DNA of 64,000 nucleotides, from the NCBI GenBank assembly GCA_022539475.1, contig VCMS01000165.1, forward strand, positions 110,084 to 174,083. The letters are read 5' to 3'. This DNA comes from Gracilaria domingensis (lineage: Eukaryota; Rhodophyta; Florideophyceae; Gracilariales; Gracilariaceae). Position numbers and translations under genes: made by a program. The notes under the pieces were generated by a model. It did not search any database. It worked only from the letters and a program-made list of their open reading frames with translations, and was not told the origin of the DNA. Positions 5-60,798 of this stretch are shown here, one piece after another; positions within the stretch are counted from its first letter, which is position 1; every line of letters begins with the position of its first letter.

Positions 5-2604
5 ATGAGCGATCGTAATCCACTTTCAAGCGGTACCAACTCTCAACCGAATCCCTCTACCGCACTCATTCGACAGGTACAATCAACTTCACTCCCATTG
101 ACAGAAAATGCACCACATTCACCAGAGATAGAGCGTTTGGAGACAACGCAACAACCACGTAGTAATTCCGTGGCTGCAGTATCTCAACCTCCAGATACAT
201 CAGCACTCAATTCTCGTAACAGTTCAAGCGATCGAAGGAAAGGCGGTCGTCGTAAAGCTGCTTGGAGAACGAATTGTGTGCCGTTTTCCCCACAAAATCA
301 GAACGCGAGTGCGTGGCGTTGCCTACATTGCTCTGGTCTGCTTGATACAAACCACGCTACGAAGCAAGCAAATCACAACGTGCGGTGCTTCGCCATGAGC
401 ACGCCTGAGCGAGAAAGTGTGAGCACGCGTTGCAAAGCGCTTTGGGCCGATATGGTGCAATCCAGATCGACGCTAGAACCTCATACCATCGACAGACAGA
501 AGCAACTCGACTACGAAGAAGGATTAGACGGCGAACGATTCATCACGCGCTCAAGTCTAGAGGGAGATCATCCACTGTATAAAAAGAGAAGGATAAACAC
601 TCCTCAAATTGATGAATGCTCTGCGAAGGAAGCCGAAGAAATTAACGAAATGCTAGTCTCCGTGATTTGTGAGAAGGGGTTGCCTTTCAACTTTTTCGCA
701 ACAGGGTCTGAGAGAAAAAACATTTTTGTGGAGTTTCTAAGAAAACGGCGACCTGGTTATGTTGAAAAATATCTTCCTACGCCCCAAAAGATTGCTACCG
801 AGCTTCTTGACAATTATTATTTGAAAGTCAGAGAGCAAGCTCTGGCAGGGATGAGAAGTAGACTTGCATCAGGTTATGGTACAATCATGTTCGATGGTTG
901 GGAAGATATCTCCTCCTCTACTGTCGTGAACATTTTACTGAGGACAGAAGGAAGGCGGAAGTCTCAACAGCTCACCTTCTTTGTTGACTGTATTTACACG
1001 GGTTCTCAACGAAATAATTCTCAGAAGTATGTTGAGGTTGTAGAACAGGCTGTGGCGCCGTTTGGAGGCATGTCAAGGATTTGTGGAGTGGTGAGTGACA
1101 ACGCCCAAGCTTTCATAAATGCTAGAACAGAGTTGTGACGCGCTTTGCAGTTGTTGAGGATATGCTCAGTTCCTTTATAAGAAGCCGTCCGGTTCTTCTG
1201 CAATTACTACGCGAATCCGATTACCGCACAGTGCTCTACAAGACGCGCTCTAGGCAAGCAGAAACTGAAAGACAGGCACTTTACGATGGCGCTATTATCG
1301 ACCATCGCTTACTGCATGAAGCCGTGGAGATTCGAAAAATATTAGGAGTAGTGAGGAAGTACTTACGGCTTTGGGATAGCGAAAAGTGCAGCATTTTGGC
1401 CGTTCTCCCAAGAACGATTGAACTAGAGAGGAGTTTAAGAAACCTCCCTTCCTCAACATTTATGACATCATCTCGCAAAAATGACATTATGAGAGCTTTT
1501 GAGATCCGCAAAACGGGAAGAGATCCGTCTGGTCAACGACATGTGAAGGCAAAACTATTAGAGAACATACATTACGCCGCATTTCTTTTAGATCCACTTC
1601 AATGTCCGGCCGACACCAGTCCCTACCTGGAGCAGTTCAAGGAGCATCTCAGAATGTACTGCCAAGGCACTGGTACTGAAAGCCCTGTTGCACTCGTTCA
1701 CACAATTCTATGGCAGTTTGACGCACAACTCTTTCGATGGCATGATCAATCCGACATGAATGAAGAAAACAAGAGGTACCTCCAGCGGTATCGAGGAACG
1801 CCCTTAGTGTGGTGGACCAATGCTGCCAATCAATCAAACCACAACCTGGTTGAATTCGCTTGCAGGACTTTGTCGTGCTCACCTTCTTCTTGTGCTGCGG
1901 AGAGAAGTTTTAGTGCGCAGGGCCGTCTCCACACGAAGTACAAAAATAGAATATCCGAGGTCCGTATGAAGAAGATCATATTCGCTCATTGGAACGCTCG
2001 AATTTTGCGTCGCGTAGCTCACACTGATGATTCTATGTTCTGGAACTTAGTCTTTGATGCTGAGCCTGATATGCTGGAGAATGAGATAAGGCAAAACAAT
2101 TTGCTGGAATCAGTCATTGGAAGTGATGAAGAGCAAAGGGATATTCTACAGTCGTATAGCCAGAACAGTTCAGCACATTCAACACCACAGATTGCATCTA
2201 CTCCTTCGGAAATCACAGCTGTTGGAAACTATGCCAATCCGGATAGTGATAATGGGCGGCCAATGGTACAGCCAACTGCAACAGAATCACAAGTTTTTGC
2301 CAACGCCTCGAATCCTCTTCTTAATCCAGCTTGCCATTCAGCGATTGCTGTGCTGTCTAATCCAGAAATTGCAAGAGCAACAGAAATACTCCGCTCTAGT
2401 TTGACCTCGAGTGTAGCAGACAGCCGTTTTAGTGCTCGGACACGGGAGAAATTGGTGGCGCGGAACGAACAAGAGGTCACGTCAAGGTCGATGGAGAATG
2501 AAGAATTGCAAAAAAGAACCATACTTCGGAACAAAGAGTTTCTGAATCGACAAGGGATAACAGAGAAAACTGACGCTGTACTTGGGTTTTATGGGAGCCA
2601 CTGA
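5..2604 (+). pseudogene. hAT-superfamily transposase, internally deleted copy
   Basis: Two reading frames, 5-1138 and 1135-2604, together form a hAT transposase. The first carries a BED-like Cys/His cluster near residues 104-128 (CLHC ... H ... C) and a DUF659-type RNase H start with the FDGW motif near nt 890-900 and VVSDN near nt 1090. The second ends in the typical hAT C-terminal dimerisation segment with AERSFS near nt 1900. Compared with the second hAT copy in this window (20,075-22,534, minus), about 85 codons are missing at the junction near 1136, and the reading frame changes there. The missing stretch lies in the catalytic core after the second aspartate, so this copy cannot make an active enzyme. 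The 5' terminal repeat would lie outside the window. The hAT assignment is firm; the exact deletion limits are inferred from one comparison only. Confidence 0.82.
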
Positions 2605-20074: not shown

Positions 20075-22534
20075 CTACTGGAAAAGGCTGCCCATAACAC
20101 CAGCGTCGGGAAGCTGGGCTTCCTCATGCTCATTTTCAACGTCTGAAAAAGCCGATTCGACGATGACTTCGGTGATTGCCTCTTCTTCATTGATATGCTC
20201 ATTGTTTGCGTCAACGCTGGGGTCCATGTCAAAGTAGGAGACGAAATCTCCGGTGCCTAAAGGAGTCGCTGTCGGTTGCCCTTGGTGCGTCGGAGCTGTT
20301 TGCTCTGGAGCTACGTTAGATCCTTGTGGGGATGCCACTGCAGCATGAGCTGATCTCAATGCATTCTTACCAGAGCGATGTGTCTTTGAGTTCAGTGCAC
20401 GGTTAAAGGCACAGAAGATCATCTTTTCCACTTTGAGTGGATGGAGCCGGTTTCGTGAAGGGGTTCGAATTCTCCCCTGCAGGCTGAAACTCCTTTCCAC
20501 ACTTGACGATGAAGGGCTCACCGATAAAATGCGTAGGGCGAAGTCTCTCAACCAGTGATTACCTCTGAACTGCATCCAATAAACAACTGGAATATTCTTA
20601 AACGCCATCAGCGCTTCTCGTCGTGTCAGATTATCTGCTTGCGCCCTCCATGATAGCCGCGTGAAGCTAAATTCTTCGAACAATCGATGAACACCACCAT
20701 CAACTCCGCCTGAACTCGGTAGTTTTTGCGAAGGCGGGAACACATCGGAGGTAACGTACGCTCTGATGTGCCTCAACACATGTTTGTTGTAGTCTGTAAC
20801 GTCCTCATTTAGACTTCGAATATCGATAAAGTACGCCACGAAGTGTAGAGAAGTCAACAGCGGAATTTTTCGTGAGTCGTCTTTCATACGACCACGGAAG
20901 GATGTCAGTACTTGGTCCTTTCGAACGGCGGTGAAAAACGGCGTCAAAGGGAGGGCTTGGAGTTCTCGTTCAAGTTGCCTCGTTGCAGGGAACACTTCTG
21001 AGATGACAGAACTTTCGTCATCAAATATGCGCAAATACTGTCGCATGAGGCGGAACACATAATAGATGTCGAGGCACTTCTCAAATATGGAATTGTCGCG
21101 AACAGTGGCCTCAAAGTAGTCTCGTCGATGGGCATTCCTGTTCCCATACAAATTCTTGTGAAAGTCAGGACAGTCCACCAACTTCCTGTATATGGGTTTG
21201 CCCCTAATAAAGGAATGAAGCATTCCTTCCGAACTCGCAAAGCGAGTAGCCGCCATTTTCATTGGCAGCACTGCGGTTCGAATTGGGACAACGCGGCCAT
21301 ACTGATCGACTTCCCGGTTTCGTGTGATGTAGCCCGTGTTGCGAAGGTTTATGTTGAATTGATCCTTAAGTTGCTTAAAGCGGAAATAAAGTTTAGAATG
21401 CTTCCGTAAATCGTTGACTACCCCTGAAACGGTAGACAGTATATCACCAATCCACGGCAGTTCTCCGACGTCCTGCATTAACAGGTTTGCCACATGGGTC
21501 TGATCTTGCCCGGAAATGATGTGGTTATGTCGTCGTGCAATCTCCTCTTTTGCCTTAACGCAGGAGGCAGTATTGTCACTGACAACGCCAGTAACTCGGC
21601 TCATGTCTCCGAAATCTCCAAAGACTGAATCAACGATATCGGAGTAAAGGCTTGAATCGCAGCTGGCGGCTCCCGTATAAACAGAACGCAAAAAATACGT
21701 GACTCGGGAGCGATCAACACCGGTTATTGTGAGCAGCACGTTCACAACGTTCTCGGCATTTGCGTCGGTCCAGCCGTCAAAAATGAGCGTGCCGTAGGTT
21801 CAGCGTAGTGCGGAAGAAATTGATGACTTAACCAGATTCATCTGTTTCAAGTAGTATCCTTCGATATTCTTGCTTGCCATCCTGGCAATAGTCGGCACGT
21901 GGCGTTCCAATCGAGGATCCAAGAGCTTCACAATCTCCATGAGCTCGTTTTCATCTTTCCGTCTACTTAAAATGTTGAATGGAAGCATATTGTGCACAAT
22001 AAAACGTGTAAGTAGATCATGAAGCCGTGAAACTCTGCTGCCGAATTCCTTTTCCACCGTTTCATCCTTCGAAACGTGCCCAAGCTTCTCTTTCTTCTGA
22101 ATGGATACAGTTGGGGGTCTACTGAGGGCTGTAGAATCAGAACGTTCACGTACCTTAGACGGGGTAATGGGAATATCAAAACATTCAGACGTAGACCCAA
22201 GCTTTCGATGAGCTTTGAGTAGAGAAGGTGACTTGAGTAGTTTTGTCAAAGTGTCAGACGACGTAAATTCGCACTGTAGAAGATGTTGCCCGAGCTGCGT
22301 AGCATTCATTGTGGCAGATTTCGTCTGCCGCCCGCAGCCATTGCAAGTGGTATAGATATTGTCGGTAGGGGTTGTAGAATCATTGTCTTGCTGGAGTGAA
22401 AAGCACTCGGTTGGCGACCAGCTGCGCTTTCTTCCGACTTTGCGTGATGTGGATGAGTGGGATTGGTTTGGCAAAGACTGATTTGAAGCTGAGGCGTTAT
22501 TCGCAGACATTACGGGATTAGAAATATTCGCCAA
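20075..22534 (-). pseudogene. hAT-superfamily transposase with one in-frame stop
   Basis: A continuous 820-codon frame from an ATG at 22,534, broken only by a TGA at 21,800-21,802 (after codon 244). It shows a C-x2-C ... H-x4-C BED-like finger near residues 64-94, F-D-G-W just after the stop, V-V-S-D-N-T in the second aspartate region, and the hAT dimerisation block with S-V-E-R-S-F-S near nt 20,500. The tail is acidic and resembles that of the first copy at 5-2604. The stop lies between the finger region and the catalytic domain, so the enzyme half would need reinitiation or readthrough. Otherwise the frame is clean, indicating recent inactivation. Terminal repeats were not identified. Confidence 0.83.
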
Positions 22535-26287: not shown

Positions 26288-27802
26288 ATGGTAACTCCAT
26301 CGTCCATTTACAGCCGGAGGAAACTGCGTTCTTCAAATGATGAACAAAGAAGCATGGATCGCTCTTCTCCGTCTAGTTCAGGCTCCAACAAGTTTCGTAA
26401 AACCTCCTCTCCATTTATGAAGCGCGGGCTGCTCCAGTTGGCGTTCGCTATGCTCATGGCTGCCCTCGGATGGTTTGCACGTGACTTTAGTGGTTCAACC
26501 AGCTCCAATGACATCCGGTCTTTCGAAGATCCGCCATGGTGGTTGGAGGACACTCTGGATGACTTCTTCTCTCGCGTATACGTTCCCGGGCTCCCAGCTG
26601 TTCGCAAGCTGAATGTATCGGCATACTTCACTGGCATGTGCGGCCGCTATCGTTTTGACGAGAGCGCAATGCCTACCGCAAGTATCATTGTCACTACACA
26701 AAATGAGCAAAATGGAATGTTGACACTAACAGTGCAAACCCTTTTAGCGCGAACACCGCCTGAACTGTTGAAGGAGATTATTATAATAGATGATAACGGA
26801 TTGGAACCATACCGGGACACTATCAACGAGGCAGAGTTTGTAGATCTTAGGCGTGTAAGTCCAAAGGTGAAGATATTGACAAACACTGAAAGGGAAGGGG
26901 TCGCAAGATGCAGAATGCGTGGGTCTAGAGCTGCAACTGGAGACGTTCTTGTCTTTGTGGATAGTCATGTGGAGATGCTCAGTGCCACCTGGCTTCAGCA
27001 TCTTTTGCTTCCCATACTTGAGCAACCAAAAACTATTGCAGCCCAAACACTTGATATCATTAGTGACCTTGATTGGTCATACGGACCAGGGAGCGGCGAT
27101 TTGCTGTATGGTGTGATCTCGGACAAATTCTGGTTTAGTTACCAACGATCTCGTTTCAGTGGCCCTGATGGAAATGGGTCCGAGACAGAAACGCCTGGTA
27201 GAAGACTACCTTACGAAACGCCTTTTGCTGCGGGGAGCCTTTTCGCTATCAGGCGGGACGTCTTTATGGACTTGGGTGGGTACGATGAAGGAATGTACGT
27301 CTGGGGTGGGGAGAATACGGATTTTGCCATAAAGATGTGGTGTTGTGGAGGTCGCCTGGTGATGGTTCCGTGTTCAAGAGTTGGTCATATGTATCGGCTG
27401 CACATACAGGACACTGGTCGATGGCCACCAGAGCTTCCTCAGGAGCTAACTGACAGACTTCATCTCGGCGGGCCAGCTGCATTTCTGGTTGACGGGCAGC
27501 CTTCAAGCAACTTTTCAAGAATAACTATGAGGAACAATATCAGAGTTATGGAACGGTGGGCGAAGCATTCGAATGCGAAGACTGGATATTATAAGGAAAC
27601 TCTCGGGTCAGAAACTCTTCCGGAGGAATGGCAGATATTCGCAGATGAGATGAAGACGGAAAAGTATGCTGTGCGTCAGCAGGAGGTAATCGACAAAAAT
27701 CAATGCCGTGACTTTGATTGGTTCGATAAACACGTGATGGTAAAGCTGGCTGGGGTCCATCACCCTTGGCACCCAGAATCACCCGGGAAGACGTGGATTT
27801 GA
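26288..27802 (+). CDS. Polypeptide N-acetylgalactosaminyltransferase-like (GT27), no lectin domain
   Basis: 504 codons. A short basic cytoplasmic tail and one membrane segment (about 47-63) give a type II Golgi topology. The GT-A domain opens at A-S-I-I-V-T-T-Q-N-E (131-140). The metal-binding D-S-H is at 225-227, and the Gal/GalNAc-transferase motif runs from G-G-Y-D-E-G-M (330-336) through W-G-G-E-N (339-343) to C-S-R-V-G-H-M-Y-R (362-370). The family transfers GalNAc from UDP-GalNAc to Ser/Thr in the Golgi lumen. The usual E-x-S-F-R after W-G-G-E-N reads D-F-A-I-K here, a noticeable departure. The protein stops soon after the catalytic domain, so the ricin-type lectin domain of typical family members is missing. 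A second member follows 1.5 kb downstream on the same strand. Confidence 0.87.
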   Translation: MVTPSSIYSRRKLRSSNDEQRSMDRSSPSSSGSNKFRKTSSPFMKRGLLQLAFAMLMAALGWFARDFSGSTSSNDIRSFEDPPWWLEDTLDDFFSRVYVPGLPAVRKLNVSAYFTGMCGRYRFDESAMPTASIIVTTQNEQNGMLTLTVQTLLARTPPELLKEIIIIDDNGLEPYRDTINEAEFVDLRRVSPKVKILTNTEREGVARCRMRGSRAATGDVLVFVDSHVEMLSATWLQHLLLPILEQPKTIAAQTLDIISDLDWSYGPGSGDLLYGVISDKFWFSYQRSRFSGPDGNGSETETPGRRLPYETPFAAGSLFAIRRDVFMDLGGYDEGMYVWGGENTDFAIKMWCCGGRLVMVPCSRVGHMYRLHIQDTGRWPPELPQELTDRLHLGGPAAFLVDGQPSSNFSRITMRNNIRVMERWAKHSNAKTGYYKETLGSETLPEEWQIFADEMKTEKYAVRQQEVIDKNQCRDFDWFDKHVMVKLAGVHHPWHPESPGKTWI

Positions 27803-29365: not shown

Positions 29366-31312
29366 ATGAATTACGCTCTACCACTGCGAAGAAAAACTTT
29401 ACGTCGCCTCAAGGCTAAACGAGTAAGACGGAAAGCAGTTGCTGCCGTCGCCGTAACGCTGACAGTGTTTGTGTATCTGGCATTCGGAGCGTCGCACAAA
29501 CCCTCTCGACGTGTTCCGGGACACGTTCCGAGGCATGTTCCGAGACATGTTCCGCGCATTGAGCTCTCCGAAATGAAACGTCCTCGGCATGTTCCGAACA
29601 TTAAGCTTCCGAACATGAAGATTAACCAAGGCGGTTCGCGGTTGCGTTTAGAGCAAGAGCCAATAACAGATGAAGAACACCTGCACGGAAAACATATAGG
29701 CGAGTTGAATGGTGTACCTCACTGGGTCCCGACTCCACTAGACTTTCTCGCTCAAAGCGAGGAGGAAAAACATTTTGCTCATACCAACTGCAGTTTCAAT
29801 CGCATGCGTTCAGATTCACTCGCGCTGGATAGACCCATCCCGGATGTTCGACCAGACGTGTGCGCTACGGAATGGTTCTACGATTCGACAGCCAAATTGC
29901 CCACAACCTCCGTTGTCATTGTGTTCTACAACGAACCATTATCGACGCTACTTCGCTCAGTTCATTCGATACTCAACCGAACCCCGCCTCACTTGCTGCA
30001 CCAAATCATCCTTGTGGACGATGGCAGCGATGATGGCGCACCATGGCTGCTCGACGGCGCTGACTTGGATCAGCATATTGCTGTGCTACCCAAAGTCATC
30101 CTATCACGCTTGAAGGGAAGGAACGGCCTAATGGCTGCTCGTAACAGCGGTGCAAGTCTGGTATCTGGCGACACAATAACATTCCTAGATTGCCATATTG
30201 AAGTCGGTCCTGGTTGGGTACAGCCGTTGATGGGGCGCATTGCTGAGGGTGTTCTAGACGGCGTGAACCATGTTGTTGTGCCCAGTATCGACTTTATTGA
30301 CGCAGATACATTTGCGTACACCAAAGGTGGAATAGATATCCTTACCCATACATGGGGTCTGACACAGGCTGGAATGCCAGGTGGATACTCTCAAAACGAT
30401 TCCAAACCTATCCAGTCTCCCATCATGGCTGGAGGATTATTGTCATTATCCACTGCTTACTTTGACGAATTGGGCTTTTATGATCCGGAAATGCAGCTAT
30501 GGGGCGGAGAGGAGATGGAGATTTCATTCCGCATATGGCTTTGCGGAGGCACCATTGAGTGGGTGCCCTGTTCGCGGATTGGGCATGTATTCCGCTCCGA
30601 CAAGCACTGGAAAGGGAGTCTGTACACGATTCCCGAGGGAACTATACAGCGGAACCGAATGCGAGCAGCGTTTTGGATGGGAGAATACAAGATTCTGTAC
30701 GAGGTTTCCACGATGCCATTGCCAGACGGTATGGATATTGGGGACATGAGTTTCTACGAGGATATCAAGAAACGAATGAAATGTCGTTCTTTCAAGTGGT
30801 ACCTGGAAAACGTTAACACCAAGCTTCTAAGCGATGCTAAGAAATTGATGGGCCCCGATGGGTCTCCACGTTTCCAGGCGACGGGGTACTTGAGGAATAA
30901 CCAAAGTAGGTCGTGCCTTGATCATCTGCACGAGAACGGAGACCGCGCCGTATTCGGTGTATTTCCATGCCATTATCAGCAAGGCAGTCAGTCAATAGTG
31001 TTGACTTCGTCAAATCTGGTGTTATCGGGTGAACACTTGCTGGATGGGTGCCTGACGCGCGGCGAGGACTCCAAGCTATTTCGCGAAAAGTGCAGCAACT
31101 TAAAGACGTCGCAACAAACCTGGCAGCCCACATTCGCTCCGGACGGTACGAACGTGTACATGACGTACGAGGGCCAGTGTCTGACTGTCGTGGGCGGAAG
31201 CGATGCAGGCGGAAAGAGCCTGATGTCGTTACGCATGAAGCCGTGCGGGAAAGCGCCGCTCGCAGGCTTTCAGAAATGGGAGTGGGAGCACCGCATCGCG
31301 CGGGACAAGTGA
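29366..31312 (+). CDS. Polypeptide N-acetylgalactosaminyltransferase with ricin-type lectin domain
   Basis: 648 codons. A very basic N-terminus precedes a membrane anchor (about 24-41). A lumenal stem follows with a short repeated H-V-P-R unit (residues 53-77). The GT-A domain has T-S-V-V-I-V-F-Y-N-E (181-190), V-D-D-G-S-D-D-G (217-224), the metal-binding D-C-H (275-277) and the family motif W-G-G-E-E-M-E-I-S-F-R (379-389), then C-S-R-I-G-H-V-F-R (402-410). Residues about 515-645 form a ricin B-like lectin domain with paired Cys and a final W-E-W. This is the canonical GALNT architecture for O-GalNAc initiation in the Golgi. Motifs match the animal-type consensus more closely than those of the upstream neighbour (26,288-27,802). 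Confidence 0.9.
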   Translation: MNYALPLRRKTLRRLKAKRVRRKAVAAVAVTLTVFVYLAFGASHKPSRRVPGHVPRHVPRHVPRIELSEMKRPRHVPNIKLPNMKINQGGSRLRLEQEPITDEEHLHGKHIGELNGVPHWVPTPLDFLAQSEEEKHFAHTNCSFNRMRSDSLALDRPIPDVRPDVCATEWFYDSTAKLPTTSVVIVFYNEPLSTLLRSVHSILNRTPPHLLHQIILVDDGSDDGAPWLLDGADLDQHIAVLPKVILSRLKGRNGLMAARNSGASLVSGDTITFLDCHIEVGPGWVQPLMGRIAEGVLDGVNHVVVPSIDFIDADTFAYTKGGIDILTHTWGLTQAGMPGGYSQNDSKPIQSPIMAGGLLSLSTAYFDELGFYDPEMQLWGGEEMEISFRIWLCGGTIEWVPCSRIGHVFRSDKHWKGSLYTIPEGTIQRNRMRAAFWMGEYKILYEVSTMPLPDGMDIGDMSFYEDIKKRMKCRSFKWYLENVNTKLLSDAKKLMGPDGSPRFQATGYLRNNQSRSCLDHLHENGDRAVFGVFPCHYQQGSQSIVLTSSNLVLSGEHLLDGCLTRGEDSKLFREKCSNLKTSQQTWQPTFAPDGTNVYMTYEGQCLTVVGGSDAGGKSLMSLRMKPCGKAPLAGFQKWEWEHRIARDK

Positions 31313-31752
31313 CGGGTGCTTGTTTTCTCCTTTTGCTGACGATAAAGAACACTCTGTTTGATTCGCGACGCGCCAGGGTTGCGGGAATGTCGTTCATGCG
31401 CGACGAGCATCGCGGCGCCGCGCGAAGGTCAGCAACGGGGCGCGCAGTGGTCCAAAACGCGCCGTGTCAGCCACGGCGCAATTTGAAGCCGCCACGCGAA
31501 GCGGACACGCGCAATCTCGCAGCTCGCGGTCGTCTCGCCGCGTCCATTTGTGGCCATCCGATCCGCGCGCGCGCGCGCGCGCGCAACCCCCGCCGCCGCG
31601 AGCATCAAATCTGCGCCCGCATCGCAGCGTCCCCTCCCCCCGACGCCGGCGTTCCCCCTCAATCCGCGCTCCCCTCCCCGCCTCCCCCCCCCCGCCACCC
31701 CCCCACATCGCTGCCCCCCCGCCCCGCCGCGCTTCCCCGTCGCCCAGCCGTC
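31313..31752. other. Intergenic, sharp GC increase
   Basis: Base composition changes from about 50% GC to well over 65% within this stretch, which includes a (CG)n run near 31,565-31,582. It serves as the upstream region of the Psb27 gene. Confidence 0.45.
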
Positions 31753-32277
31753 ATGTCGTCGCGCACCGCCTTCGCGCCGTCAACCTTCCTGTCGCCGTCG
31801 CCGTCGGCGCCGGCGCGCGCGCGCGTGGCGCGCAGGCCGGTGGTGGCCATGTCCACCACGCCGCCTGTTTCCCGCCGCGCCCTGCTGCTATCCGCGCTGC
31901 TCTCGACCACGGCGCTGGCGCTGCCGCGCGCGTCGCGCGCATTCGGGCGCAAGACGTCGATGACGGGCGACTACAAGGTCGACGCCGCGCAGGTACTGGG
32001 CGACATGCGCGCCGCGTGCGACCTGGGTCGCGGCGCACCCGGCATGGCCGAGAAGGTCGGCAAGACGCGCGAGGAGATGAATGATTTTGTGGCCCTGTAC
32101 CGAAGGAATGACAAGGTGGCCGGAAGCACCAGCTTCTCCACGCTGTACACGGCCATCAACACGCTGAGCGGGCATTACGCGTCCTACGGCAGCAGTTACC
32201 CCGTTCCGGAGAAGAGGAAGAAGAGGTTGTCGCAACAGTTTTCCGAGATTGATCGCGCACTTTCTCGCGGACGATAA
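31753..32277 (+). CDS. psb27: Photosystem II assembly factor Psb27, plastid-targeted
   Basis: 174 codons. The N-terminal 40 residues are rich in Ser, Ala, Pro and Arg without acids, as in plastid transit peptides. They are followed by a twin-arginine lumenal signal (S-R-R-A-L-L-L) with a hydrophobic core and a cleavage-like R-A-F-G. The mature part has the Psb27 four-helix signature: Y-R-R-N-D near residue 116, S-F-S-T-L-Y-T-A-I-N-T-L-S-G-H-Y-A-S in the centre and P-E-K-R-K-K-R-L near the end. Psb27 binds the lumenal side of CP43 during photosystem II assembly and repair. I chose the ATG at 31,753 because the longer upstream frame is GC-rich and not protein-like. The gene is convergent with the SLC25 carrier, 244 bases away. 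Confidence 0.92.
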   Translation: MSSRTAFAPSTFLSPSPSAPARARVARRPVVAMSTTPPVSRRALLLSALLSTTALALPRASRAFGRKTSMTGDYKVDAAQVLGDMRAACDLGRGAPGMAEKVGKTREEMNDFVALYRRNDKVAGSTSFSTLYTAINTLSGHYASYGSSYPVPEKRKKRLSQQFSEIDRALSRGR

Positions 32278-35217: not shown

Positions 35218-36933
35218 GGCGCGCGGCGCGGCGCGGCGCGGCGCGGCGGAGCGCTACGGCCGGCGCAACTGCTCTCGGCGCGGCAGCGCGGCAGCGGCAG
35301 CGCGGGCGGCAGCGGCAGCGGCAGCGGCAGCGGCAGCGGCAGCGGCAGCGGCAGCGGCAGCGGCAGCGGCAGCGGCAGCGGCAGCGGCAGCGGCAGCGGG
35401 GGGCGGTACGAGCGGGAGCGCGGGCGGGAGCGGGGTCGGGAGCGGGGGCGGTACGAGCGCGCAGGCGGGGGGCGGCGGGCGGCGGGCAGGCGGGAGGAGG
35501 GGCGGCGGCGCGCGCGCTGGCGATACGCGCGCTGCTTGTTGACTGCGCGCGATATCTATCTACGCGCGCGCGCGGTGCGCGCAACGGCGGCGGCAGGCTG
35601 CCGCCGGCAGTTTGAAAGTTTGGTTGGCTGCCACGTGCAGCCGCGCCGTTGGCGTCATACACGCGCGCGCGTTTGGCGCTTTTACGGTAATCGCCTTACC
35701 CGATCTCACCGCCGCGCGCACGCACCCAGTGTGACACGCAGCCACCGACCTGCCTCCGCGCTTCCCGCGCCTCGCTGCGCCTGCCGCGCGCGCGCCATCC
35801 CGCGCGCGGCGCGGCGCGGCTGCGCGCGGGACTAATGGGCGCGGGCGACGCCGCGCCGCGCGGGCGGCGCCGCGCCGCGCGTGGGCGCGGCGCGCTCGCC
35901 GAGGCCGCCTGCGGCCGGCGGCGTGCTGCGGCGCGCATCTCGAGAGCGGCGCGGCGCGGCGCGCGGCTGTCAGGCGCGGCGGCGGCAAGCATGGAACGCT
36001 TCCACGGCGCCCCCCGCCGCAGGCGGCGGCGCCGCGGCGGCGCCGCGGCGTGCAGCAGCGCGTCTCCACCGGCGCGCGGCGCCGCTGGCGGCGCCGCCGG
36101 CGGCGCGGCGGGCGCGCGCGGCGGGTAACGGCCGCCAGGCTCGCTCCGCCTCGCAGTGGAACGGCTCTGTGTAAAGCCACTGTAACTCGCCGCGCGCGCG
36201 GAGCTTGCGCGCGCCGTGCGCCGCGCCGCGCCGCCGCCTGCGCTTGCACGCCGCGCGCCGTGCACACGTCTGCCAGCGCGGCCAGCGCGGCCACGCGGCC
36301 ACGCGGCCAGCGCGCGCGGCGCGCGCATATTCGCATCGAATCTTGCGCGCGCGTAGACGTGAGCAAAGCTGCCACCGTGGCGGAAAGGACGCGCTGTCGA
36401 AAGTGCGCGCCCGGCGCGCGCGCGCGCCGCCGCCGCATGGCTCAATCGCCCCGACGCGCGCGCGCGCGTCGCGTGCCCGCCGCCGCGCGCCGCGCCGGCG
36501 GCCAAAACTGGCGCCGCGCGCCGGCGACGCGGCGCGCCGCAGCGCGCCGCCGACACACACACAAGTCGCAGAAGATGCGATCGAAACGGCCGCAAGGCGC
36601 CTCGCGCTGCGCGCCCTATGAGCGCGCCACACGTGGCGCGCATGAACCCTTGCGCCGCGCTTGTTGCATACACCAAAATGCAGAACGGCGGCTGCTGAAT
36701 TTTCGCACTTGTGTGCATCTGCCGCCGATAAAGGCTCCTGTGCTTTCCGCTTGTTTTTATGCCGCGCTTGCTGCCCCCCCCCCCCCCCCCGTCTCACCTC
36801 TGCTTCCCGCTCTCCTTCATCCCCAATTGCCGCCCCGCCGCGACGCGCTTGCGCTCTTTTCGCGCCCGCCCAGCCGCCGCTGCTTTTGCGTTCGCAACCA
36901 CCCCCCCCCTTCCCCATTTCTGCGCGCCGCGCC
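35218..36933. other. Very GC-rich divergent intergenic region, no gene seen
   Basis: Long frames exist on every strand and frame but are dominated by Arg/Ala/Gly from GCG/CGC repetition, with no domain, so I treat them as composition artefacts. The region separates the divergent WD40 and SPX genes and presumably holds both promoters. Toward 36,660-36,930 composition shifts to C-rich pyrimidine tracts just before the SPX start. Confidence 0.45.
35303..35400. repeat. (GGCAGC)n hexanucleotide microsatellite
   Basis: About sixteen near-perfect copies of the six-base unit in the divergent region upstream of the WD40 gene. Confidence 0.92.
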
Positions 36934-38439
36934 ATGAAGTTTGGCAAGAGGATACGCGCCGTCGCCGACCAGTCGTACGAGGAGTGGCGTCCCATGTTCA
37001 TGAGCTACAAGGATCTCAAGAAGATTCTCTCCGCCGCCATCTCCTCCTCGTCCGCCCCGTCCTCCGAAAACAACACCACGCAAACCAGGAGCAACGACAC
37101 CACCCCGCAATCGTCGCCCACAAACGCGCTGCTGTCCGCCGCCGCGCTCGCCGCGCACAACACTGCTCACCACAATGACGTCGTCGTCAAAACCGCCCAG
37201 CTGCAAGACTCCCAGTTCTTCAGCCGCTTCCGCGCCGAGGTGGACAAGGTCAACGAATTCTTCCTGGACAAGCAGGAGGATTACATAATTGAGCACCAGC
37301 AACTCACCGACAAGATGAACCAACTGCTGCAGCCGGCCGCCGCAACGCGCCAACAGCTCATCCACCTCCGCCAGCGTCTCACCGCCTTTCACGGCCAACT
37401 CGTCCTGCTGGACAACTTCTCCACCGTCAACTACACCGGTTTCCGAAAGATCCTCAAGAAGCACGACAAGAAGACGGGGCTCAACGTGCGCAACGTCTAC
37501 TTGAAGACCGTTCTCGTCACGCCCCTCTTTCTGTCTGACACCGTTCCTCAGCTAATACGCGCCACCGAGTCGCAGCTGGCGCAGCTCGATTCCGTGCCAA
37601 AGTTTCGACGCACCACCACCTCATCCTCCGCAATCCACAGCGCCATGCGTTCGTCCCCAACCAGTGCAACCCTGAGCCAAGTCACCCCAAACCACACGCC
37701 TTCCAAAACCGCACACATATCCACCTCTTCTCCATATCTCCATCCTCGTCCGCATGCGTTTATTTCGCCGTGCTCCACTCTTTGGCGCTTCCACTACGAG
37801 ACTCGCCTTTATGCGGCGCGCGTGCACCAAGCCTTCCAGTCGTCTCACGACTGCATTCCGTTGCCAAGTCCAACGCTTTCGCAGCTGTTGGATTCGGTGC
37901 ACCCGTCCGAACTGGGAATTCATTCGTCCTTCATTTCGAGCGTGCCCACTGCGTGCGATTATCGCATTGCCACCGATGCCAACTTTGCAATGGGCTTCTT
38001 TGTGTTTGGTCCTGGCACCCAGTTGCAGCTGTTCAACGTGCGCGGAGCCACCGTCACGCGCAATCTGTATGGCCGAGTCAGATTACGCTGCTTTGAGACC
38101 GTTCGCACTCAACAAGCATCGTCGGCGACGACGACGATGACAACAGCAGCCGCACAAGCTGTTGTCGAGCCGCAAAAACAGTGTGATGAAGCGAGTGACA
38201 CTCTGCTCGTACGGGAGACGCGACGAGGTGTCACCAACGGTCCGTGGCCGGCGGTAACCACTCACGCCAACTCTCATGTGCAGTGGACACCTCAGACACA
38301 AAGTGCGCTGTTTTATGTTACCGCCCCTTCCAAAGCTGTGGAACGACTGCCGCGATATCGACTGCGACCGCATGAGCATTCTACGTTCAGCGTGCTTGAT
38401 GAAGGCGAATGTTGGCCAGTAACACAAGTGTTCAGTTGA
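36934..38439 (+). CDS. SPX domain protein fused to a PCO/ADO-like cupin
   Basis: 501 codons. Residues 1-34 and about 90-200 form an SPX domain: M-K-F-G-K start, Y-K-D-L-K-K, and the inositol-pyrophosphate-binding lysine cluster K-I-L-K-K-H-D-K-K (172-180). A Ser/Thr-rich linker follows. From about 310 the sequence matches the plant cysteine oxidase/cysteamine dioxygenase family: L-L-D-S-V-H-P-S-E-L-G-I (318-329), F-A-M-G-F-F-V-F-G-P-G-T (351-362) and L-Y-G-R-V-R-L-R-C-F (378-387). Where that family has the iron-binding H-x-H, this protein has F-N-V (367-369). A third His candidate remains at 482. I infer a phosphate-status sensor carrying a catalytically altered cupin. SPX is firm; the cupin relation is a by-eye alignment. 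The start ATG is the SPX-consensus start. Confidence 0.82.
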   Translation: MKFGKRIRAVADQSYEEWRPMFMSYKDLKKILSAAISSSSAPSSENNTTQTRSNDTTPQSSPTNALLSAAALAAHNTAHHNDVVVKTAQLQDSQFFSRFRAEVDKVNEFFLDKQEDYIIEHQQLTDKMNQLLQPAAATRQQLIHLRQRLTAFHGQLVLLDNFSTVNYTGFRKILKKHDKKTGLNVRNVYLKTVLVTPLFLSDTVPQLIRATESQLAQLDSVPKFRRTTTSSSAIHSAMRSSPTSATLSQVTPNHTPSKTAHISTSSPYLHPRPHAFISPCSTLWRFHYETRLYAARVHQAFQSSHDCIPLPSPTLSQLLDSVHPSELGIHSSFISSVPTACDYRIATDANFAMGFFVFGPGTQLQLFNVRGATVTRNLYGRVRLRCFETVRTQQASSATTTMTTAAAQAVVEPQKQCDEASDTLLVRETRRGVTNGPWPAVTTHANSHVQWTPQTQSALFYVTAPSKAVERLPRYRLRPHEHSTFSVLDEGECWPVTQVFS

Positions 38440-40701: not shown

Positions 40702-43549
40702 ATGCATCGCCTGGCCCGCTCCCGCTCGCTGTATCGGCGGCTCTCCACGGCGGCCGCCAACGCGCCGCAGCGCTCTGCCGCAGCCTCGCCCGTGGCGGAT
40801 CTTTTCGACGATCATGTCGCCAGCCACCTCCTGGCGCCGCCGCCCGTGGCCGCCGCGACCCCCGCGCCGTCGCCGCCCACCCACATGCGCGACGCCTTTC
40901 TCTACGCGCCCGCGGAGCAGTCGCAGTACGAGCGCCAGCTGCAGCTCGAGGAGCAGACCATCGAAACCGCCGTGCAGCGCTACCAGAAAATGGCGTCCGA
41001 CGCCTCGCAGCGCGGCGACGTCGTCACCCACAAACCGGCCGCCGACCTGCTGCTCTCGTGGTACAACCCGCTCAGCCTTGCGATCCGCGATGCCTTGCAG
41101 TGCGGCTCTCTGTCTGCCAACCCCAAGTCTGCTCAGCGCTACCCGCTCAAGCAGAACGGCCCAGTCGCTGGCTTCCCTGTCTCCCGACACCATATCCGTC
41201 GTCACCTTGCACACCGTTCTTGGCGCCCTCATCCGCGAATCGCACGGCGTGCCGCTCACGCGGTTGGCCATCAACGTCGCAAACACAGTGCGCGCCGAGA
41301 TTAACTTCAAGAAGATCAATGCGTTGCAAAGAAAGCAACAACAGGCTGAACAGCGCATACGGTCGCAACCGCCCGAAGAGAACGCACCAAAGCGCAAACA
41401 GCGACCAAAAAAGGCGCGTGACGTGCTCAACAGAGCGATGAAGCACTCGCCAAGCATGATATCGGCCGTCAATTACGCCGCCCAGCAAGTCGCCGTTCAA
41501 GATTCCACCTGGAGTTCCAGTGAGCTTGTGTTGATAGGCACCAAGCTTCTCGACCTCATGATTCGCGCTGCCAAGGTGCAGGCGCCCGATGGAAACTTTG
41601 TGCCCGCAATCTCGCATTTCAAGCGATTTAGGAAGTCGGAGAATACTACTGTGGGTATGCTTCAGCTTACGGACACTGCGGTTCGCACTTTGAGCGAAAA
41701 CCAAGTTGACCTATCGTCCGTAGTTTCCCCAAAGCAACAACCGATGTTGGTTCGGCCACGCCCGTGGATTTCGCCGACTGAGGGCCCCTATCTGCGATGC
41801 CGCGCGCCGCTGGTGCGCACAGTACCGTCCGCGCAGCAGGAGTTGAAGGACGCACTGGCGGTCGCCGACCTGTCCACCTTGTTCGACGGTCTCAATGCGC
41901 TAGGCGACCAGCCTTGGCGCGTGAATCGCAGCGTATACGACGTGGCACAAGAGCTGTGGCGTCAGGGAGGCGGTATCGCCGGACTGGTGACAAAGACAGA
42001 CGCGCAGGTGCCGAACAAGGCAGATTTCATGCAAGCGCAACTGGCAGCGTTTGAGCGCAGAAAACGGGAAATGATGCAGTGGCGAGAGCAAGAGGAAGCG
42101 GAGAGTGACGACGAAGAAATGGTGTTTGACGAGAAGAAGGCGTCAAGAAGACTACGTGCTGAGCGACGAAAAGCGCAAAAGATGAACCGTGAACTGCTGT
42201 CTTTGCGGGCGGATACGTATCACAGATTGAGTCAGGCAAGCAAGTTTGTGAACGAGGAGCGCTTCTGGCTGCCGCACAACGTGGACTTTCGCGGGCGGGC
42301 GTATCCAATACCGGTGCACCTGCAGCACATGGGGTGCGACCTGACGCGCGCGCTGCTGACATTCGCGTCGCCGGGTGTGGAGCTTGGCGAGCGCGGGGTG
42401 TATTGGCTGAAGGTTCACCTGGCCAACCTGCTGGGCGCTGACAAGCTGTCTTTTGAGGAGCGAGTGGAGGTGGCGGAGGCAGCAATGCCAAAGGTGATGC
42501 AGGTGGGGCGAGATCCGCTGCACGAGCAAAACCTGGAGTGGTGGAGCTCGGCCGAGGACCCGTTCCAGCTGCTGGCGGCGTGCTCGGAGGTGGCGGCGGC
42601 CGTGGGGCGGCACGGCGGCTCGCGCGCGCTGGAGGCGTACGAGAGCACGCTGCCCATCTCCATGGACGGGTCGTGCAACGGGCTGCAGCACTACGCGGCG
42701 CTGGGGCGGGACGTGGCGGGCGGGGCGCAGGTGAACCTGGTGCCGAGCGAGCGGCCGCAGGACGTGTACTCGGGGGTGGCGCAGCTGGTGCGCGAGAAGG
42801 TGGGGCGGCTGGCGGACGGGGGCGACGGCGTGGCGCAGCTGGTGCGCGACAAGATCAGCCGCAAGGTGGTGAAGCAGACGGTGATGACGAGCGTGTACGG
42901 CGTGACGCTGATCGGCGCGCGGCAGCAGGTGGCGAACCGGCTGGCGGAGCTGGGCGCGGTGCCCGAGGAGCGGCTGTTCGCGGCGTCGATGCTGGTGGCG
43001 TCGCTGACGCTGTCGTCGCTGGGCGACCTGTTCGGCGGCGCGTGGCGCACGATGGAGTGGCTGGCCGAGAGCGCGGCGCGCGTGGCGAAGAGCGGCGAGG
43101 AGGTGCGCTGGACCACGCCGGTGGGGCTGCCGGCCGCGCAGCCGTACCGGCGCCGCGACGGGCAGGTGGTGCGCACGCTGCTGCAGAGCGTGCGCGTGCA
43201 GCGCGACGGGCGCGGCGCCGTGTCGGCCGCGCGGCAGCGCTCGGCGTTCGCGCCCAACTTTGTGCACTCGGTGGACTCGGCGCACATGGTGCTCACCGCC
43301 GTGGCGTGCCGCCGCGCCGGGCTGCACTTTGCCGCCGTGCACGACTCGTTCTGGACCAGCGCCGCCAGCGTCGACCGCATGAACGCGCTGCTGCGCGAGC
43401 AGTTTGTGGCGCTGCACGAGCGCGACCTGCTGGCCGAGCTGCGCGACGCGCTGGCGCTGCGCCACGCCGACGTGCCGCTGCGCGCGCTGCCGCCGCGCGG
43501 CCAGCTGCCGCTGCGCGCCGTGCTGCAGTCGCGCTACTTCTTCAGCTGA
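40702..43549 (+). CDS. Phage-type (T3/T7-like) mitochondrial RNA polymerase, with apparent one-base frameshift
   Basis: The N-terminus lies in one frame (ATG at 40,702, with an Arg/Ser-rich, acid-poor presequence fitting mitochondrial import) and the rest in another. Protein-like translation passes from the first to the second at about 41,157; one extra G at 41,158/41,159 would explain it. The catalytic parts are complete: D-F-R-G-R near 42,287, the A motif (S-M-D-G-S-C-N-G-L-Q-H-Y) near 42,660, the B helix (R-K-V-V-K-Q-T ... S-V-Y-G) near 42,865 and H-D-S-F-W near 43,340. About 948 codons after joining, normal for RpoT. It transcribes the mitochondrial genome. Either an assembly error or a true mutation is possible; intact downstream motifs favour the former. 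The last kilobase has third codon positions almost all G or C. Confidence 0.88.
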
Positions 43550-43879
43550 GACCCCTCTTGTCCGGCTCGCGGCCACGCCGCCAGCGCGCACGCGTGGCGC
43601 GCCGCGCCGCGCCACCCCCCGGCAGGTGGCCCGCCACCGCGCCGCGCTGCCGTGCCTCGCGTGCCGCTGCCGCGCGCGCTGGCGCCGCGCCGCGCCGCGC
43701 CGCGCCCGCGTGCGCGCCAGATGCCGCCGCGCGCCCAGCGCCGCCCTTCATCATCGCGCCCCCGCCCCCAGGTCCCCCCCCCTTCCCTTCCCCTCCCTCA
43801 CCCCCTTCCCTTCCCCTCCCTCACCCCCTTCCCCCCCCCCCGGTCACCCCCGCTCCCGCACACACGCGCCCCGCCCGCC
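43550..43879. repeat. Polypyrimidine tandem repeat upstream of the OTU gene
   Basis: Between 43,760 and 43,845 a C/T-only unit of about 23 bases repeats nearly three times, ending in a C run. The stretch before it is GC-rich and holds no gene. Confidence 0.7.
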
Positions 43880-45153
43880 ATGCGCGTCCGCCTCGACGCC
43901 CACGGCCGACCGCGCCCGCCGGCCCCCCCCCGCCGCCCGCCGCGCCGCCCGAGCCGCCCGCGCCGCCCGCGCCGCCCGCGCCGCCCGCGCCGCCCGCGCC
44001 GCCCGCGCCGCCGCGCGCCGCCGCGCCGCCGCCCGCGCCGCCCGCGCACCCCGCCCCCCCGCTGCGCCCGCTGTCCTCCGCCGCCGCGCCGCCCGCGCTG
44101 CCCGACGACGAGCGCGGCAGCGACAGCGGCGCCAGCGCCGCCGCCGAGGGCTACAACTCCGAGGACGAGCACCCGCACGCGCGCATCGACCTGCCCGCGC
44201 GCACGCAGCGCGAGCGCGAGGCCGCCTTCGGCGCGCAGCTGGCCGCGCGCGGCCTGCGCGTCGTCGAGATGCGCCCGGACGGAAACTGCCTGTTCCGCGC
44301 GCTGGCGCACGTCGTGTGGAACGACGCCGAGAAGCACGCGTCGCTTCGCGCCGCCGTCATGCAGTACCTGCTGCAGGAGAGGGACTACTACTCGCAGTTT
44401 GTTGCGGAGGATTTTGTCAGATATGTGCGCCGGAAGAGAAGGGATGGCACCCACGGAAATCACCTCGAGCTGCAGGCCGCCGCCGAGCTCTTCGGCCGAC
44501 CGATAGAGGTCTACGCGTACTCGTCCACCCCGGCCACCGTCATTGAGGCGTGGGGCACTGCCAGCGCGGCTGACGCCTCGCCCACGCCGGAGCCCATTCG
44601 CCTCAGCTTTCATCGCGGAAGCCACTACAACGCCCTGGAGCCGTTCAACGCCCCGGATAAGAGCGCGAAGCGTGCTGCCGCTGAGGCTGCCGAGCACGCC
44701 GCATGGCGCGTGGCCGCCGATACGCGCGCGACGGAGGAGGAGATTGAACGCGCCGTGCTGGCGCTTTCGATGCTTGAGGCGAACCGCGAAGAGCATGTGG
44801 CCGGCTCTGCCAGCTCGTCCGCGGCTGCCGTGCCTGGTAGCGTCCTGGCGCTCATCAGCTCGGGCTACTCGGAGGAAAGCGCCAGTGAAGCGTATCGTGT
44901 CGCCGGGAAAGGCGGCTTGTCAGAGATGGTCCGCTACTTGACTGGAGACCGCTTCCAGTCGAAACGACTGTCGCCTGCGCCCCCGCGCGCGCCCCGCAGT
45001 GGCAAGAGCCACAATCTGGCCGTGTCGGGGCGCGCGTTCGCAACCGAAGCAACGAGCGAGCAGAGGCTGGATCGTTCCTTTGAGAGATCACTAACTATTG
45101 ATACGGATGTTGACGATTCAAAGTCGCGGACGAGTGAAGAGGGCGGTGCTTAG
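43880..45153 (+). CDS. OTU-family cysteine deubiquitinase, with apparent frameshift in a C run
   Basis: The plausible start is the ATG at 43,880, but the domain is in another frame that contains no ATG before it. The frames join if one C were added in the C run at about 43,921-43,930, giving a Pro/Ala-rich N-terminal tail. The OTU domain follows: D-G-N-C-L-F with the catalytic Cys near 44,285, H-G-N-H-L-E-L-Q near 44,455 and the catalytic His in S-H-Y-N-A-L near 44,623. This wording is closest to the OTUD5/OTU5-like branch. A C-terminal segment near 44,845-44,945 (L-A-L-I-S-S-G-Y-S-E-E-S-A) looks like a UBA-type helix bundle. It removes ubiquitin from substrates. Convergent with the methyltransferase, 355 bases away. 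Confidence 0.82.
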
Positions 45154-58883: not shown

Positions 58884-58961
58884 GTGAACATCAATCACAT
58901 CCTTCTCATTCGTATACCCACACCCATTTGCAAAACGAACCCTTTCGAAAGCTTTCAAAAC

Positions 58962-59834
58962 ATGTATAACTCAGAAGTTAGAGCCCAAGAACTAACTCCT
59001 CAGCAGCTGGCTAACGAAATATTCGAAAATGGCTACGCCGTGATTAGTGATGTTGACGGTACTCTGAAAAGAGCTGGGGAGAACATTCCTGCCCAAACAG
59101 TCAAATGCATGAAGTACATCAACGCACGCGTTGGTTTCGGAATTGCTACTGGGCGAGATATAGAGGATGCCGAGAGTTTCATGGAGCACCTGGGTGGCTA
59201 CACTTTTGGCATCTCTGGAAACCAAGGCGCACGGGTGAGATTATCCAATGGTACCGAAATTGATCAGGACCTTGACAGGGAAGGCTACGAAAGATGTGCA
59301 GCCGAACTTGAGAGACTTGCACTCTCCTTAAATGAATCGCACGGACTTCACGAAGAGCGTCAACAAGCAGTGGTGAGCACTAGAAAAGACAGTGGACTCC
59401 CTAACTTCACGTACAATGGACTGTCGAAGTGGAAAACAGAAGTTAACTCCGGTATTTCAAAAGTGTTGACATCCTTTCCGAACCTGGTTGCGTACCCTCA
59501 AGATGAAAACTGTGACATAGGGGACATTCGTTTCACGAAAAATAGTGGGGCGCTAGCCTTGGTTGAAAACGACCCCCAGTTCGACACACATTTAATCGTT
59601 GCTTTCGGGAATGCTTCCAATGATGGCCCTCTATATGAAATGGCAACCCTCGCAGTTCATGTGAAGGGAGACGACCCTCCACCAGCGGTAACATATCTTG
59701 TTGATGTGGTGGAGGACGTGCATGAGACCATCAGAAGGGTGGCAGAACTGTACGGGTACAGAAAATGCAAGTGTCAAAGGTTTAGAAATGCTCTTGGAAT
59801 TTGTTTCAAGTGCTACGATGCCTTTAATACTTAG
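58962..59834 (+). CDS. HAD-superfamily phosphatase (Cof/trehalose-phosphatase-like)
   Basis: 290 codons from the ATG at 58,962; an in-frame ATG at 58,884 would add 26 residues, and the numbering here uses that longer form. HAD motif I is D-V-D-G-T at 56-60 with both aspartates. A-T-G-R-D (about 88-92) gives motif II, a W-K-x-E-V segment carries a candidate motif III lysine, and F-G-N-A-S-N-D-G-P is in the motif IV position. This order, with a cap between motifs II and III, fits the HAD-IIB group that includes Cof phosphatases and OtsB. Substrate is unknown. The C-terminus is Cys-rich (C-K-C ... C-F-K-C). It is convergent with a paralog whose stop is 52 bases away. Confidence 0.8.
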   Translation: MYNSEVRAQELTPQQLANEIFENGYAVISDVDGTLKRAGENIPAQTVKCMKYINARVGFGIATGRDIEDAESFMEHLGGYTFGISGNQGARVRLSNGTEIDQDLDREGYERCAAELERLALSLNESHGLHEERQQAVVSTRKDSGLPNFTYNGLSKWKTEVNSGISKVLTSFPNLVAYPQDENCDIGDIRFTKNSGALALVENDPQFDTHLIVAFGNASNDGPLYEMATLAVHVKGDDPPPAVTYLVDVVEDVHETIRRVAELYGYRKCKCQRFRNALGICFKCYDAFNT

Positions 59835-59886: not shown

Positions 59887-60798
59887 TTATGAATCTTGGT
59901 GGTTTTTATCGTGCTGCTTTTCCTCGTAGCCGTACAACAGAGCCACCAACATAATTGTTGAATGTACATCCTCCACGCTTTCGAACAGGTTCTGTACTCC
60001 ACCCGGGATACAATCTTCTTTGACGTGAACGCCGTACACGCCTACCTCATGCAAAGGCCCATCGCTCAAAGCACTTCCGAACGTCACGACGTCATCCGTA
60101 TCAATAAATCCCGGTTCATTATCCACAAGATTTTCTCCTCCGCTTCCTTTTGTGTATCGCTTGTCCACAATTTCGCAACTTTTATCGCCGGGATAGATAA
60201 CAAACGCATCCATCTTCTGCAACAGGTCCCCAATAGCAGAATCCACTTCTTCTTTCCACTGCCACAGTTTGTTGTACACGAAATTGGGAAGGCCACTATC
60301 ACTTCTGGTCTCCACGAACCCCTTGTCATCATCATTCACAATACCATGCCTCCTATTCAAATCCCTTGCCAGGAACAGTAGTCCGTCAACAGTGTGGTCA
60401 AGGGTGTGATCATTGAATGCACCCTTAATTTCCCTCTCGTCAGAGAAACGCAGGAAAGCTCCATGATTCGCCGAGACACCAAACTTATAGTCTCCGAGTC
60501 CTTCCATTTTCCCCTCCACGTCGCCCACATCACCCCCTGTGACAAGTCCGAAACCAACACGTTCGTCAATGAACTTCATACACTTCACAACTTCTTCTGG
60601 AATTGACTCTCCTTCTCTTCTCAACGTTCCATCAACGGAACTTAATATACCGTAACCATTGGCATATATGAACTTAGACAAGGTATTGGGTGAAATTTCC
60701 GCCAAGTCTCTCTGTTCCTCTGCCATTTTTCCTGATACAGTCACCATACTGCCACAAGTACCGCATAGACAGGAACTGTATAGACTTCTCAGTTTCAC
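59887..60798 (-). CDS. HAD-superfamily paralog lacking the catalytic aspartate
   Basis: 303 codons. It aligns end to end with the convergent neighbour (58,962-59,834), sharing G-E-x-I-P, V-K-C-M-K, R-V-G-F-G, D-S-G-L-P-N-F and D-G-P-L. In motif I the nucleophile is replaced: S-S-V-D-G-T (53-58) instead of S-D-V-D-G-T. Motif II reads V-T-G-G-D in place of A-T-G-R-D, and motif IV reads F-G-S-A-L-S-D. Without the nucleophile the phosphatase reaction should be lost, so a regulatory or binding role is inferred. The N-terminus has a C-L-C-G-T-C segment not found in the neighbour. Start choice among three nearby in-frame ATGs is uncertain. The frame is clean, which argues against a decaying gene. 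Confidence 0.8.
   Translation of the reverse strand: MKLRSLYSSCLCGTCGSMVTVSGKMAEEQRDLAEISPNTLSKFIYANGYGILSSVDGTLRREGESIPEEVVKCMKFIDERVGFGLVTGGDVGDVEGKMEGLGDYKFGVSANHGAFLRFSDEREIKGAFNDHTLDHTVDGLLFLARDLNRRHGIVNDDDKGFVETRSDSGLPNFVYNKLWQWKEEVDSAIGDLLQKMDAFVIYPGDKSCEIVDKRYTKGSGGENLVDNEPGFIDTDDVVTFGSALSDGPLHEVGVYGVHVKEDCIPGGVQNLFESVEDVHSTIMLVALLYGYEEKQHDKNHQDS

Follow-up and report, generated by a model that had tools for sequence, protein, structure and literature searches.

Cells read phosphate status through SPX domains and oxygen through PCO/ADO enzymes. The SPX fusions described in PMC13153306 and PMC12388464 are SPX-EXS, SPX-MFS, SPX-RING, SPX-VTC, SPX-DUF202 and SPX-CitMHS. The protein studied here is like them in that SPX is joined to a different domain, but none of the listed fusions carries a cupin, and the word "cupin" is absent from the main text of both sources. 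The main text of a survey that includes three rhodophytes mentions neither cupin nor PCO (PMC8717665). A full-text search, with most subscription journals and preprints outside its coverage, found no paper treating an SPX domain together with a cysteine oxidase or thiol dioxygenase, and none on a cupin dioxygenase pseudoenzyme. The combination of SPX with a PCO/ADO-like cupin looks new.

Residues important for both parent families have been reported. In AtSPX1, Y25, K29 and K139, and K136, K140 and K143, are putative inositol-pyrophosphate (PP-InsP)-binding residues, and both alanine mutants of these residues lost AtPHR1 binding in the yeast two-hybrid assay (PMC7810988). The iron ligands of ADO are His112, His114 and His193, a 3-His site described as strictly conserved across the thiol dioxygenase superfamily, and ADO also has Pro210-Pro211-Tyr212 and Cys220-Tyr222 (PMC8503633). 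Asp206 of ADO is essential, with activity reduced by 99% in D206A and 98% in D206N, and F101 stacks on the substrate (PMC12098869).

Gene organization and the SPX half

The gene lies on the plus strand at 36934-38439 of the window, that is, the whole 64,000-nt stretch of DNA that was analysed, and no second copy of its protein was found within the window. Frame analysis gave 501 uninterrupted codons from the ATG at 36934 to the TGA at 38437-38439. Over the same interval each of the two remaining forward frames is broken by 10 stops; in the three reverse frames the stops number 3, 17 and 23. Upstream of 36934 the frame stays open as far as a TTG at 36661. Position 36934 is nevertheless the likely start, because the protein beginning there has the MKFGK N-terminus of the SPX chains recovered by the PDB sequence search. 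The features of the gene are listed below.

36934-38439, plus strand: SPX-cupin gene, 501 aa, in a single stop-free frame with no intron required
36934-37032, plus strand: N-terminal part of the SPX domain, residues 1-33, from alignment to PDB SPX proteins 1 and 2
37033-37203, plus strand: Ser/Thr/Asn/Ala low-complexity loop within the SPX domain, residues 34-90, seen in the sequence and poorly matched in the PDB alignment
37204-37590, plus strand: SPX core, residues 91-219 (PF03105 match; 7e40, E 2.1e-31)
37591-37884, plus strand: Ser/Thr/Pro-rich linker and beginning of the C-terminal half, residues 220-317 (sequence; model helix 282-303)
37885-37920, plus strand: PCO-type lead-in LLDSVHPSELGI, residues 318-329 (shuffle test against AtPCO2)
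37984-38094, plus strand: cupin motif 1, residues 351-387 (Pfam, PDB and shuffle comparisons)
38032-38040, plus strand: F367-N368-V369 where the H-x-H iron ligands would stand (ADO His112 and His114, as given in PMC8503633), from several alignments
38110-38199, plus strand: Thr/Ala/Gln-rich low-complexity insert separating the cupin motifs, residues 393-422 (sequence and alignments)
38251-38334, plus strand: degenerate cupin motif 2, residues 440-467, with TTHANSHVQW and FYVTAPSK (alignments; predicted strands 447-453 and 457-463), not significant alone
38275-38277, plus strand: His448, possible third iron ligand (ADO His193), from ADO spacing to A464-P465; one column off in MAFFT

The homology to known families is strong for the SPX half and modest for the cupin half. 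The SPX domain claimed in the original prediction was recovered clearly. Against the full protein PF03105 gave E 2.1e-22 and 81.1 bits, exceeding the curated cut-off of 27.8 bits, and against residues 1-224 it gave E 1.4e-25 and 91.5 bits. The best PDB sequence relatives were SPX domain-containing proteins 1 and 2 (7e40, E 2.1e-31; 7d3y, E 4.2e-28), which we take to be rice proteins. All six AtSPX1 PP-InsP residues have counterparts, matched by number and spacing and not by alignment to AtSPX1: Tyr25 and Lys29 carry numbers identical to Y25 and K29, and K172, K175, K176 and K179 reproduce the K-x-x-K-K-x-x-K spacing of K136, K139, K140 and K143. Because these residues are present, we infer that the SPX half can bind inositol pyrophosphate. 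Compared with the plant stand-alone SPX proteins (7e40, 7d3y and AtSPX1), the protein shares the MKFGK start, the best PDB matches and the six residue counterparts, but its SPX domain contains a low-complexity loop of 57 residues, and it has about 180 additional residues predicted as a cupin. GC3 is about 0.85 in the SPX half and 0.49-0.65 in the cupin half, a drop compatible both with relaxed selection and with a local GC gradient.

Kinship and active site of the cupin half

The Pfam evidence for a PCO/ADO-like cupin depends on the segment scanned. PF07847 (PCO_ADO) matched the full protein with E 6.6e-6 and 26.1 bits, slightly below the curated cut-off of 27, residues 274-501 with E 1.9e-6 and 27.9 bits, above it, and residues 260-399 with E 2.5e-4 and 21.0 bits; the match spans profile positions 36-117 of 201 only. 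Residues 274-501 matched no other Pfam family at E up to 10, residues 380-501 alone matched no Pfam family, and no family of NCBIfam or PHROGs was matched. Among the PDB sequence matches of the full protein, taken up to E 10, there was no cupin, and a single-sequence PDB search with the C-terminal half ranked AtPCO5 first at an E of only 0.92.

Shuffle tests against PDB-derived stretches indicated similarity above chance for motif 1 and the lead-in. For the motif 1 region (residues 300-400), none of 2000 shuffles matched the real score against AtPCO4, AtPCO5 or ADO, and 54 of 2000 did so against AtPCO2. When the lead-in was compared with AtPCO2, 2 of 2000 shuffles scored as high as the real sequence; with a longer stretch of AtPCO2, 1 of 2000 did. 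For the motif 2 region (residues 396-501), the shuffles scoring as high as the real sequence, each of 2000, numbered 236 (PCO5), 748 (PCO2), 1109 (PCO4) and 1467 (ADO), and since at least 236 of 2000 score equally, this similarity is not significant by itself. A PCO-family profile built from 18 bacterial and 3 plant sequences gave 8.6 bits for residues 272-501, against 6.5 bits for the best of 2000 shuffles (1189 of which had any score), 1.2 bits for the reversed sequence and 0.2 bits for the SPX half. With hhalign, seven bacterial PCO_ADO homologs, a shallow profile (effective depth about 2.2), were aligned to the C-terminal half at a probability of 0.4% (SPX-half control, 0.1%); despite this value, F-N-V was placed beneath H-N-H.

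The cupin half was also modelled twice with AlphaFold, from alignments of 8 and 19 sequences. Confidence was low (pLDDT 47.5 and 55.2; pTM 0.44 and 0.49), and the models consist of two helices, one of them at 282-303, followed mainly by strands. For each model the Foldseek ranks 1-22 were PCO/ADO chains (best E 3.7e-5 and 2.3e-5), with query-normalised TM-scores over these ranks of 0.28-0.37 and 0.36-0.46 and an rmsd often above 10; the result is partly circular, because the model alignments included PCO_ADO homologs. CENP-C was among the Foldseek matches of both models, and canavalin and vicilin among those of one. In the CENP-C cupin and in canavalin/vicilin the cupin barrel serves a non-catalytic role. 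Their matches were weaker than those of PCO/ADO, and these cupins are without SPX.

The original prediction had proposed that SPX is fused here to a PCO/ADO-like cupin. Of this claim the fusion and the kinship are borne out by PF07847, the shuffles and Foldseek, but the Pfam score is borderline and passes the cut-off only when the C-terminal half is scanned alone. The lead-in LLDSVHPSELGI (318-329) and the LYGRVRLRCF strand (378-387) on which it was founded were both found exactly, on either side of F-N-V at 367-369. The claim was to be given up if neither a PCO_ADO match nor a cupin prediction could be obtained for the C-terminal half; PF07847 matched, and Foldseek returned PCO/ADO chains.

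Searches for relatives elsewhere were conducted with several queries. Viral contigs were scanned for close relatives of either half and also with the bacterial PCO alignment, and no relative was found; nor was any found in the plasmid searches with the cupin half and with L003, a bacterial PCO_ADO gene obtained by scanning with an AtPCO5 stretch. L002, the match of a separate scan with such a stretch, was dropped, as the sole frame of at least 70 aa over the matched region is one of 990 aa on the opposite strand. Bacterial genomes with a PCO_ADO match numbered 7 of 387 and 18 of 384 in two overlapping sets. Each of the 18 distinct PCO_ADO frames inspected from bacteria keeps the H-x-H, N-x-H, Asp and P-P-Y motifs; these frames come from one bacterial group and therefore share ancestry and are not independent. 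They remained from 20 rows after removal of L004 (the same gene as L003) and a spurious minus-strand frame in L014, while L022 (20.7 bits, below the cut-off) lay outside these rows; the L012 match crosses one TGA, and only the frame preceding that stop was counted. The bacterial motif search demanded H.H and so could list only frames that have it; nonetheless all 18 matches above the cut-off were recovered (17 plus L003/L004).

Six of the seven aligned bacterial proteins (L005-L010) begin with a stretch of the type M-[DE]-[DE]-Y-x-RR-x-F followed by a hydrophobic run. This stretch presumably resembles a twin-arginine export signal. To our knowledge, an exported thiol dioxygenase is unusual.

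In the SPX-cupin protein the active site is altered. In the sequence alignments the first two iron ligands, His112 and His114 of ADO, are replaced by F367 and V369, and residues 351-377, which cover all of motif 1 as far as the following strand, include no His, Glu, Asp or Cys. The place of Asp206 is taken by Y461 (ADO spacing and MAFFT) or F460 (PCO spacing), with an acid at neither. The Pro-Pro-Tyr of ADO corresponds to P465-S466-K467, so that equivalents of Pro211 and Tyr212 are absent, and no Cys-x-Tyr occurs in residues 440-501. F101 of ADO is kept as F356. The third iron His may persist as His448, because it lies in a predicted strand and stands 17 residues ahead of the proline in A464-P465, the distance from His193 to Pro210 in ADO. 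The MAFFT alignments shift His448 one column off the third-ligand position, and the alignment there is statistically insecure.

These residues bear on the remaining claims of the original prediction. The loss of iron ligands holds for the H-x-H pair, replaced by F-N-V, and extends further to Asp206, Pro211, Tyr212 and Cys-x-Tyr, but it may be incomplete if the third His remains as His448. The suggestion that the cupin is non-enzymatic agrees with the missing equivalents of the iron His pair, Asp206, P-P-Y and Cys-x-Tyr; judged from the sequence, the cupin is probably non-enzymatic. As was also suggested, it may be SPX-controlled. The other option offered, a changed metal site, is little favoured by a motif 1 that lacks His, Glu, Asp and Cys from 351 to 377.

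Compared with the PCO/ADO thiol dioxygenases (AtPCO4/5, human ADO; PF07847), the likeness consists of the lead-in, motif 1 and the Foldseek ranks 1-22; the differences are the missing equivalents of two of three iron His, Asp206, Pro211, Tyr212 and Cys-x-Tyr, and the fusion of the cupin to SPX. Assignment of the protein to the PCO or ADO enzymes was considered and rejected, because the defining features tested (iron His pair, Asp, P-P-Y and Cys-x-Tyr) are absent. A single frameshift as the origin of F-N-V was likewise rejected, since the protein alignment runs on at both flanks.

Interpretation and alternative explanations

The reading we prefer, held with about balanced confidence, is that the protein is a phosphate-responsive scaffold or adaptor, composed of an inositol-pyrophosphate-binding SPX domain and a non-catalytic, partner-binding cupin derived from PCO/ADO. 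It builds on the fusion frame, the SPX homology, the weaker cupin homology, the SPX ligand residues and the absence of the catalytic Asp and of the first two of the three iron ligands. When phosphate is plentiful, the SPX half, with its intact ligand residues, would bind inositol pyrophosphates. The cupin half would have descended from a PCO/ADO N-terminal-cysteine dioxygenase, would be incapable of holding the catalytic iron and would have lost activity, and it could then act as a non-catalytic module binding a partner or peptide. Ligand binding to SPX might alter the availability or exposure of this module and so couple the two halves. The cupin half is accordingly read as a putative pseudo-thiol-dioxygenase tethered to an SPX sensor. 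Against this reading stand the borderline Pfam score, the AtPCO5 match at E 0.92, the hhalign probability of 0.4% and the low model confidence and TM-scores; in addition, the viral scans for close relatives of each half and the plasmid search with the cupin half yielded no ortholog to indicate that selection maintains the fusion. The original prediction was right in its observation and mostly right in its interpretation, which rests on one gene in one organism; the mechanism given above is a proposed one.

The main rival, which we consider somewhat unlikely, is that the cupin half is the unneeded relic of a fused thiol dioxygenase and that the protein acts as an ordinary stand-alone SPX regulator. 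Several active-site features are gone together, a pattern such as drift leaves, and the non-significant motif 2 and the lower GC3 of the cupin half would suit it as well; but the frame is stop-free to its end, strands are still predicted, and the lead-in, motif 1 and F356 at the place of ADO F101 persist. If the cupin instead continued to act as an enzyme or as a ligand sensor, binding another metal or a small molecule through new ligands, His448, which fits the third-ligand spacing of ADO, and the nearby His444 could serve. The absence of His, Asp, Glu and Cys from residues 351-377 and the missing equivalents of Asp206, Tyr212 and Cys220-Tyr222 speak against such changed catalysis, and we regard it as unlikely.

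Doubt can also be directed at the kinship itself. That the C-terminal half is a cupin of another family, or no cupin, and resembles PCO/ADO in one stretch only would be in keeping with a Pfam score near the cut-off confined to profile positions 36-117 of 201, with the hhalign probability of 0.4%, with the AtPCO5 PDB match at E 0.92 and with the low TM-scores. It is made improbable by PCO_ADO being the sole Pfam family for this half at E up to 10, by the lead-in match to PCO2 and by the PCO/ADO chains at ranks 1-22 of both fold searches. We think it very improbable that two genes were merged artificially through a misassembly, a missed intron or a missed stop. There is a single source sequence, and GC3 shifts at the linker; yet the 501-codon frame is continuous through about 100 linker residues where the other forward frames have 10 stops each over the gene, and position 36934 yields the MKFGK start shared with SPX chains.

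A more specific and speculative version of the scaffold reading, to which we give little credence, is that the protein works as a decoy within the cysteine N-degron pathway and is gated by phosphate. The iron-less cupin would retain its grip on N-terminal-Cys peptides or on genuine PCO/ADO enzymes, and binding of inositol pyrophosphate to SPX would switch this grip. If this were true, phosphate status would directly tune oxygen sensing. More generally, a natural protein uniting the SPX and PCO/ADO folds would offer a physical clue to how the phosphate and oxygen pathways might communicate, and it would count as a pseudoenzyme candidate within the thiol dioxygenase family. If conserved, it would readily allow a test of the use to which an inactive oxygen sensor is put.

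Neighbouring sequences in the window

An Rfam scan of the window found no family, and a promoter and terminator scan, whose patterns are bacterial only, gave nothing useful. The segment 34001-36000, immediately upstream of the SPX-cupin gene, has 78.6% G+C, and outside 30-48 kb the window is mostly at about 40-50%. Two hAT-type transposase frames with DUF659 and Dimer_Tnp_hAT matches were found at 5-2604 (plus strand), where DUF659 is below the cut-off, and at 20075-21745 (minus strand); the former copy may be broken, because its DUF659 and Dimer_Tnp_hAT sit in two adjoining frames. Adjacent family-2 glycosyltransferases with a galactosyltransferase-type motif lie at 26288-27802 and 29366-31312 (plus strand), the second with an additional ricin-type lectin domain, as in GalNAc-transferases. 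A 409-codon frame at 31048-32274 (plus strand) carries a Psb27 domain at residues 275-405 (E 5.1e-28) with relatives in the PDB, and has a long N-terminal extension, as in a nuclear-encoded plastid protein. This frame indicates no more than a photosynthetic eukaryote, which may be a red alga. Downstream of the SPX-cupin gene, a frame of the single-subunit RNA polymerase type at 40814-43549 (plus strand) is overlapped by one at 42538-45153 (plus strand) with an OTU protease domain downstream, and a convergent pair of HAD-like hydrolase frames is located at 58884-59834 (plus strand) and 59887-60798 (minus strand).
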